Source: Atherinomorus stipes (lineage: Eukaryota > Chordata > Actinopteri > Atheriniformes > Atherinidae). Taken from it: a stretch of DNA of 64,000 nucleotides. The stretch spans positions 636,510 through 700,509 of the forward strand of contig JALJCO010009027.1 of the NCBI GenBank assembly GCA_023101725.1, read 5' to 3'. Both the position numbers and the translations under genes were made by a program. The notes under the pieces were generated by a model. It saw nothing but the letters and a program-made list of their open reading frames with translations, searched no databases and was not told the DNA's origin. Shown here one piece after another: positions 22,166-64,000 of the stretch (the first letter of the stretch is position 1; every line of letters starts with the position of its first letter).

Positions 22166-25100
22166 ATGGCGAACGACTCTCCAGCTAAAAGTCTAGTAGA
22201 CATAGACTTGGCTTCATTGCGGGTGAGTGCTGCCGACTGGAGCCGATGTTTTTCTCCTCTTTTCCTGTCTTTTACTCAAAGTTTCTCGTTAAAACGAAGC
22301 CCATTTAGTCTGGATATTTCAGAAAGTTGCAGGCTGTTGTTGGGTGTTTCTTGCAGGAGGTGAAGTATTGGAAAATGACCGCTGAGCCACAGCGAGGTGT
22401 TGCCAGTGTCTGCTTTTCCTTTGTTCGAGATGCATTTGGCATGTAGGGAAGACCAGGGCGCAACAGCTGGCTCAGAGTGGACACTGATTATAATTTTGTT
22501 TATCTCTAAAAATGTAATGTGATTTTATTTTTTGATTTAAACTCTCTGTCCTTTTCTCTCAGGATCCAGCCGGGATATTTGAGCTCGTGGAGGTAGTTGG
22601 AAATGGCACCTATGGACAAGTATACAAGGTTGGTTGGAGGCGCAGTGCATGGCCTGTCCTGTTTTCACTGTGGAGGCTCAGCATATCCAATGTTTTTCTC
22701 TTTCTTTTCAAAGTCTGGAGGCAAAGGAAATGACATTAAGTTAGATGCTATGAGACTTCATGGGGGAAGGTTAAGTAGAAAGGAGATAAATCTAGCATTT
22801 GGTCTTCTTGGTATAGTTTCAGCCTGATTTTTATTATCAGTCCAGCTGAGAGCTTTGTGTAAAGGCTGAATCAGACCCCCGAAAGTGTGATGCATCACCT
22901 ATCTTGCATCACTTGCCTTACAGGAAATTAGATGATGCAAGCATGGAGAAACTATCTGAAGATTAAGCATGCTTGCGTTTTTCTATCTTATCTTAAGCAA
23001 TCAAATTTCACATCTTGCACGAATAAGGAGATTTTTTCCCCTATCTCAGTGAATGGGAATCCCACTCTCTGGACCATCTGCTCTTGGTGTCACATTTCCC
23101 TGCTGAAAATTAACATTGCCACTGTTGAAAGATGCCACCAAGGAGGTAGAGTGAGACTTGCATAGAAGTAAAAAAAATAAATGCTTTTCTTTGCACGCTA
23201 GAGAGTCATATGGCCATGTTCTTGCAGGAACTGCTAAATGTCATTTAACAGTGTGGATGTCTAGTTTGCCAAGCATGGCATTGATTGTTAATAGTGTTAG
23301 CAGTTTAGGCAAAAAACAAAAGCAGCAAGCTAAGCTGAGAATTAAACTCTAACAGCTCACAGTGCTCTAGTGGCCTGTATCCAATCCCCTTTTGCCCACT
23401 GAACTCCCAGCATCTCATCCTGGCTTCAACTTATAAAGCAAGCCCATGTGTGCATGTGCTCATTACACCTGAAATCAGCCCTGTAAAGAATACCTGCGGT
23501 GAGGAATCATGGTTATTGCATGCTATCTTGCCACCAGATGGTTTTTAGCTAGACGTATGGGACAGAGAATTACAGCTTCTCCCCTTTTTTGTCCCTTTTA
23601 ATCTCTTTCCATTTGCTGTTCAGTGTTAATTCTATTTGCAAATGCTGCTGTGTGAGACTGGAGCTTGTAGAAGAGAGGGCTGTCAGATTAGCTTGGAGTT
23701 GACACAAAGACAGTAGTTTCAGCCTGCACGAGATAAGCCAAAGCGTCTCCAGCGAAGTCAGGGCCCAGCGCTGGAGCTTTGCTGCAGTGGCTTTCCGTTG
23801 ATCAGCTGTCGATCAGCGCATCGGCCGTCACAGTGACCCGAATGAGCATGTGGCCCGGGAGTATCGCAGCGGGGCTGGAGAGAAGGGGGCGGTGTGGAGG
23901 AGGCTGCAGCTGATAGAAGAGCAACTGTCCATTTCCAGACAGAACCTGCCCCACTGCTCTCACAAAGCTCGGTTTGTCTCCACGCTCATTTGGGTCTGTC
24001 AGCCCGTCCGTCAGTTAGATCCGCAGAAAGGAGGTGTTTGTCTGCGGGGGTTTCAAAGTCCAACCGACTGAATAATCACAACAGCCTCCCTCTCAACTGA
24101 AAATGGGGTGGAGTTTTGTCTCCCTCTGAGGCCTTTTCTGCTTTGTCCAGCGCTCGGTCACAGTTTGCAAGGCCCTTTTTGGATAACACAATGTGACCAA
24201 GCTTATTCACTCTTTGATATTTGGTGACTTTTGGTTCTTTTTAGACTTTTTATCTTTGATTTTGACCATCTATATCAAATGTATTTGACTTCTATCACAT
24301 TTTGTTTGACCAACTTTACACTATAGTGGCCATAATATCAATCAGATGATCTAAACAGTTTGGTGAAAACCTGAAATTTGTTATAGAAAATGGCAGCTAC
24401 AGGCAACAAAATGACTTGATACACTGGATTTGCACGATTGGCCACAAATTTAACCTTGTTCACTCCTTCTTTGATGAGAGAGTTCCTGATTTACTCACAC
24501 TTGTGTTAACAAATTTAGAGTTTTGTCAGAAAATGTTTATTTCTCTGTGTAATTTGTGAATCAACCCTGACAAAGACTTGCTACCGCTAATGAGGGGTGA
24601 CATCCGATGACTACCTAAACATGCATTTTTGCTGTGTTTTACTCCTCACAGGTTTTACAGTTTATCCCAGAAAATTAGAGGAAGAAATCTGTTCTGTAAG
24701 ACTCCAAGTGCCATGTCAAGGTTTTTGTGGCCACGCTGCGCTGCTGGCTCTCTCAAGCTGCGTGCTCTGCCAAGAGGGCAGCCGTAGCCCCTGGAGAGGT
24801 GCCAGATTACAGTCAACTTCTGAAAACACAGCACAGCAGTTTTTCTTTTGACTGACAGCCATAATGAAAATTGCGTTACGGCTAAAAAGCATGTTTTAAA
24901 TCACTTAATTTAGCTTTGGCCAGCTGGCTGATCAGAATAAAAGCCTGGGTATATGAACAGCTTGAACACTTGTGTCCAATATCATTTAAAGAGATTCATC
25001 TGAATGAAAAGTACAGAGGGACTGAGGTGAAACAACTAAACACCTTTTTAACAATCTGGCTTATAAAAAAGATCGTCAAATTGTCTTATAACCAGCTGAT

Positions 25101-62998: not shown

Positions 62999-64000
62999 GA
63001 AATGACTAAAACTGAGTGTTCGTGTGATTTTAGACTTTTACAATGTTGTAAATTAATGCATAATTATTGTAATAATCTGAAAATTGCGATTATGTCTAAA
63101 AATAATCATACCAAGAAAATCTATCATAACACCCTAGTGCAGCACTTCCCAATGACACATGAAACATAAAGAAATCGATGTGAAAACACTGATGGCACAG
63201 CCAGAGGACGCAAAGCAGGGGCACCGGCGACTCAGGCGCGACTATATAAGGCTAGTCTGGAGCTGAAGAAATCTTCCCTGCATACCACACTCAATTTAAG
63301 GAATCGTGTCTTTTTCCATGTTATCATTAGTCGGAAAGTTTTTAGTTTTTTTTTTTTTTTTTTTAATCCTTGTATCCAGAAAGAGAGGCAGCTGAGTAGG
63401 TTGACTAAGCCAGCTGGCCCAGCGCCAACTGATAAGAAAAGAGAGAAGCTCAGTGAGAATCTCTTTGTGTAATGTAAGAGCAGCATGTTAAATCAGCAAG
63501 GCTTCATTTTTACAAAATACTTCAACTAATCAGTTGAGACAATCATAGCGTGAGAGACTAACATGGTGAAATACTTAGGTGACTAGCTACCTTCTGCTTT
63601 ATCAGCTGGTTATAAGACAATTTGACGATCTTTTTTATAAGCCAGATTGTTAAAAAGGTGTTTAGTTGTTTCACCTCAGTCCCTCTGTACTTTTCATTCA
63701 GATGAATCTCTTTAAATGATATTGGACACAAGTGTTCAAGCTGTTCATATACCCAGGCTTTTATTCTGATCAGCCAGCTGGCCAAAGCTAAATTAAGTGA
63801 TTTAAAACATGCTTTTTAGCCGTAACGCAATTTTCATTATGGCTGTCAGTCAAAAGAAAAACTGCTGTGCTGTGTTTTCAGAAGTTGACTGTAATCTGGC
63901 ACCTCTCCAGGGGCTACGGCTGCCCTCTTGGCAGAGCACGCAGCTTGAGAGAGCCAGCAGCGCTGGCGTTGCTACAAAAACCTTGACATGGCACTTGGAG

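Follow-up and report, generated by a model that had tools for sequence, protein, structure and literature searches.

Ampliconic palindromes of the Y chromosome have spacers on the kilobase scale, and their arms are above 99.9% identical through gene conversion. The arms of the Y-chromosome palindromes P1-P8 measure 8.7-1450 kb (PMC6218980), and in the fold-back inverted duplications described in human patients, each of the 21 junctions sequenced contained a single-copy spacer, with lengths of 766-70,466 bp (PMC3907307). Artificial inverted duplications have also been described: whole-genome amplification and the missing of SMRTbell adapters were proposed as alternative sources of palindromic long reads, and an assembly produced from such reads had numerous inverted duplications (PMC6218980). 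In addition, a nanopore contig from a nematode contains a direction switch that splits one gene into two predicted transcripts (Fig. 8 in PMC5765664); this palindromic contig is presented by the paper as a repeat motif confounding gene prediction, and a possible joining of template and complement nanopore reads is described in the same source. Here, we report a long inverted duplication that turns inside a map4k4-like gene in the fish Atherinomorus stipes (assembly GCA_023101725.1, contig JALJCO010009027.1, positions 636,510 to 700,509), the whole 64,000-nucleotide stretch analysed being referred to as the window. Judged on the sequence, the join is very probably an assembly fold-back artefact in which two haplotypes of one locus would have been set head to head (probability of about 0.92).

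Compared with the ampliconic palindromes, the arms of this locus were less alike (97.0-98.2% identity) and were separated by only 2 nt, and those of P1-P8 are comparable or larger in size (PMC6218980). The locus shared with the human patient fold-backs a large inverted copy of a segment, whereas its spacer of 2 bp lay far below their range (PMC3907307). As in the artificial inverted duplications, an inverted copy was combined with an abrupt turning point; the arms were nevertheless diverged here, which needs a second step, the return along the other haplotype (PMC6218980). The nematode contig was similar in that it is self-similar and turns where a gene is split (PMC5765664).

The inverted duplication around a 2-nt spacer that an earlier note on this DNA had claimed was recovered by self-blastn of the window (minus strand only, word size 28, E 1e-20; three stretches were searched on both strands) and by direct reading of the centre. 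The arms paired symmetrically about 44738/44739 in four minus-strand matches, with the identities given above:

24702..44737, + strand: left arm (self-blastn and global alignment)
44738..44739, unstranded: spacer CC, the turning point (direct reading, 60-bp exact flanks, hairpin fold)
44740..64000, - strand: right arm (self-blastn and global alignment), ending at the window edge

The sequence at the centre was GCAGATCTGTGT-CC-ACACAGATCTGC, with an exact match between the arms over the innermost 60 bp on each side; beyond these, indels and substitutions were intermingled. The 98-nt central piece folded as a single hairpin of -58.2 kcal/mol, compared with -12.2 kcal/mol (standard deviation 2.4) for shuffled sequences (z = -19.25), and none of the 200 shuffles was as stable. 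Both the extent of the mirror and the central fold are far beyond chance. The mirror extended over the span 24702..64000 that had been proposed with arms of about 19-20 kb, the four matches covering most of it, but position 24702 is no true boundary, being simply the position that pairs with the window's final base. The arms are therefore no shorter than 19.3-20.0 kb and possibly far longer, while the left flank (1-24701) had no mirror partner inside the window in the minus-strand self-blastn at E 1e-20.

Two trivial causes of the join were rejected. A scaffolding gap was ruled out as the window contained no N (count of 0). A repeat at the join was also ruled out, in agreement with the earlier statement that no repeat explains it: the 207 bp of intron leading up to the join had their mirror partner as sole copy within the window (both strands), no tandem array was present at the join, and 0 Rfam families reached the gathering score in the window.

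The geometry also bears on the possibility that the palindrome is real. A genuine germline inverted duplication could have been formed by a break followed by fold-back or fusion, its arms having since drifted by 1-2% and two truncated map4k4-like pieces having been left behind. Instability would be expected of a long palindrome whose arms almost touch, which argues against such an origin, as does the contrast between the 2-bp spacer and the much longer spacers of 21 out of 21 fold-back junctions in patients (PMC3907307). Overall, a germline duplication is considered very improbable, and slightly more improbable still is its strict form, a real inherited fish palindrome with two arms of 19 kb or more around a 2-nt spacer, which would have survived until its arms had drifted by 1-2%.

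The gene at the join was searched by tblastn with a probe for the kinase domain of MAP4K4. The three map4k4 exons previously reported as mirrored were found in both arms and correspond to exons 3, 4 and 5:

22166..22222, + strand: map4k4-like coding exon 1 (tblastn), left of the mirrored part
22560..22628, approximate tblastn bounds, + strand: map4k4-like coding exon 2
41200..41256, + strand: map4k4-like exon 3, left arm, identical to the right-arm copy
48223..48279, - strand: map4k4-like exon 3, right arm
44139..44263, + strand: map4k4-like exon 4, left arm, one base off the expected reading frame
45213..45337, - strand: map4k4-like exon 4, right arm, one base off frame, in a different neighbouring homopolymer from the left arm
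44423..44532, + strand: map4k4-like exon 5, left arm, one base off the expected reading frame
44944..45054, - strand: map4k4-like exon 5, right arm, with an open frame and with solved MAP4K4 kinase chains as best match

Among solved kinase chains, the right-arm exon 5 (37 aa) matched MAP4K4 (E 1.3e-18) ahead of TNIK (5.6e-17) and MINK1 (1e-15). The gene thus appears closest to MAP4K4 in its kinase domain, on a comparison of exon 5 alone with which a close paralogue is also compatible. The turning point lay 205 nt into the intron that follows exon 5, midway through the kinase domain. Probe residues 140-290 gave only weak matches in the window (E 2.3-7), later parts of the gene not having been sought. 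As the window yielded no later part of the kinase domain, both map4k4-like copies are cut inside this domain.

Exons 4 and 5 contained three one-base frame breaks, two in the left arm and one in the right arm. By contrast with these indels, exons 3-5 showed no true coding substitution between the arms; the four mismatch columns of exon 4 correspond to two offset indels. In the absence of constraint, approximately 3.5 substitutions would be expected by arithmetic in these 294 coding bases (11.9 per kb), with a P of about 0.03 for none. Indels without coding substitutions would be the pattern of a constrained gene under overlaid consensus errors, while a dead gene should gather both. The frame breaks, taken by themselves, would fit the dead gene left by a germline duplication; the missing coding substitutions count against it. 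MAP4K4 knockout is moreover reported as embryonic lethal (PMC10200945), so that a germline duplication demands an intact copy elsewhere.

The earlier description of the duplication as near-perfect was overstated. In the global alignment of the arms, 317 of the 18,952 columns were mismatched and 86 gaps were present; the left arm had 1,085 extra bases and the right arm 310, including large one-sided insertions. As offset one-base indels inflate the number of mismatched columns, each cluster of differences was re-aligned for counting, which resulted in 255 clusters, 225 substitutions and 131 gaps, 69 of the gaps being homopolymer indels of 1-2 nt. Isolated substitutions were defined as those with no other difference within 10 columns, a filter that dropped 181 of the 317 mismatched columns, including the spacer column. 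The 136 isolated substitutions retained comprised 84 transitions and 52 transversions, and for 34 of the 84 transitions a CpG was present in one arm. They resemble true mutation and are unexpected from base-calling noise, with the reservation that transitions represented 28% of the consensus errors in a nanopore assembly, so that some do arise by error (PMC5765664).

The composition of these substitutions was not uniform along the arms. At 4-8 kb from the centre (left arm 36738-40738), isolated transversions exceeded transitions (19 versus 11), unlike in the remaining arms.

Besides the substitutions, inserted elements were compared between the arms, as all bounded transposons had been said to be mirrored. 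This held for a 152-bp inverted-repeat element found in both arms, but not for a 217-bp hairpin element restricted to the right arm:

58445..58661, unstranded: 217-bp hairpin (inverted-repeat) element, right arm only (window self-comparison)
40532-40683 and 48789-48940: 152-bp inverted-repeat element, both arms, 98.7% identity between the copies
35154..35812, unstranded: 659-bp insert with many G and T runs, found only in the left arm (global alignment)

The two halves of the 217-bp element were 96.8% alike, and it is perhaps flanked by a 2-bp target duplication, as read by eye. It is possibly an element resembling a miniature inverted-repeat transposable element (MITE) that segregates between haplotypes. 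The 152-bp element at 40532-40683 had 50-nt arms with 84% complementarity. The 659-bp insert contained six of the ten runs of G or C of at least 7 nt found in the window, its longest G run being 14 nt, and 46% of its bases were in runs of at least 3, compared with a window mean of 23% and with 41% in a stretch near 21301. Apart from A-rich matches, it had no clear relative in the window. Judged by eye, it looks like uncorrected read noise rather than a transposon.

Taken together, the mutation-like substitutions and the one-sided insertions indicate that the arms are two diverged versions of one locus, that is, either the haplotypes of an outbred diploid or the copies of a duplication old enough to diverge. 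Sequencing error as the entire difference between the arms was ruled out by the CpG transitions and by the hairpin element present in the right arm only. One molecule read twice was also rejected as a full account, since substitutions occurred as near as 89 bp to the centre. Two haplotypes of one locus are most likely: mutation-like differences, one-sided insertions and constrained exons were all observed, although the first two of these would be expected of an old duplication too. Divergence of this kind, with CpG transitions and a one-sided hairpin element, speaks also for a true germline duplication.

The same divergence bears on a real somatic or fresh fold-back of one chromosome, in which its sister chromatids would have fused in the animal or cells that were sequenced. 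Sister-chromatid (U-type) fusion has been modelled without a spacer (PMC3907307), and fold-back inversions are described as common in cancers (PMC10622511). Such a fusion would nonetheless produce near-identical arms, in contrast with the 225 substitutions remaining after re-alignment and the one-sided insertions observed here, and sister fusion was rejected with arms this different. The fusion of two homologues would instead need both to be broken at the same place within 2 bp. A somatic event of this type is therefore regarded as extremely improbable.

Small indels were concentrated at the join. Homopolymer indels of 1-2 nt fell within the central 2 kb, out of a total of about 20 kb, in 20 of 69 cases (binomial p = 8.6e-6), and the same was true of 27 of the 96 indels of 1-2 nt overall (p = 4.9e-7). 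The central 2 kb contained 16 of the 225 substitutions (p = 0.09 for fewer), and the central 4 kb contained 30 of them (p = 0.006). One-base gaps numbered 12 within the central 2 kb; the base was missing from the left arm in seven and from the right arm in five, so that neither arm is spared. Consensus quality drops at the join, as expected for a fold-back of the read or assembly, for which an abrupt turning point with hardly any spacer and no N, as observed here, would be expected as well. For comparison, single missing bases accounted for 44% of the corrected consensus errors in a nanopore assembly (PMC5765664).

The earlier note had ranked an assembly fold-back first, and this ranking was supported by the cut in the kinase domain, the homopolymer indels at the centre and the allele-like arms sharing one turning point. 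Our results refine that account, in that the arms are two diverged versions of the locus and not one molecule copied twice. In this refined scenario, one long molecule or read would have folded back onto itself, through a missed hairpin adapter, the joining of nanopore template and complement, or an amplification chimera. The assembler would then have taken the fold-back turning point as a contig path between the strands and, the haplotypes of a diploid being similar, the return path could have been built from the other haplotype. In that case, another contig should take up the same intron and carry the remainder of the map4k4-like gene without a mirror.

Several observations weigh against an assembly fold-back. 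The nearest substitutions were found 89 bp from the centre, whereas the fold-back of a single molecule predicts equal inner arms apart from errors. The density of isolated substitutions was lower in the inner 2 kb (4.0 per kb) than overall (6.8 per kb), without reaching zero. The inner arms may thus be one haplotype with errors or two haplotypes, as the central substitution density fits either. Canu, one assembler, is said to clip unsupported, randomly joined chimeric reads (PMC5765664), and a lone fold-back read would be expected to be lost often in this way. Diverged arms with CpG transitions would be expected of an old real duplication as well. Finally, genuine inverted duplicates also lower the accuracy of nanopore reads (PMC7229812), which could produce the central indels in a germline duplication too; the drop in quality alone is therefore not decisive.

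Other features were located in the left flank. The gene at the left end of the window resembles fish ZC3H13; among the 56 matches listed for it, the single informative name was that of a Paralichthys olivaceus ZC3H13-like protein (59% of the query aligned, at 80% identity), and another named match came from the fish Dissostichus mawsoni. An intron of this ZC3H13-like gene contained nested inverted repeats at 489-1371 (52-86 nt, 83-96% complementary), which have the look of one long inverted-repeat element. An (AT)n microsatellite of 35 copies was present at 15140-15209.

If the join is false, as we consider most probable, the assembly shows a broken map4k4-like gene that does not exist, together with an extra partial copy and an inversion, and the gene counts and synteny around the join would be wrong. 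The combination of an exact turning point, allele-like arms, homopolymer indels at the centre and a cut in mid-domain might serve as a candidate read-free screen for such joins. A real join, by contrast, would be a long palindrome of a type whose persistence is not expected. Were an inherited palindrome to prove true, it would mean that the genome of this fish tolerates long palindromes with a closed centre, which should be cut or deleted.
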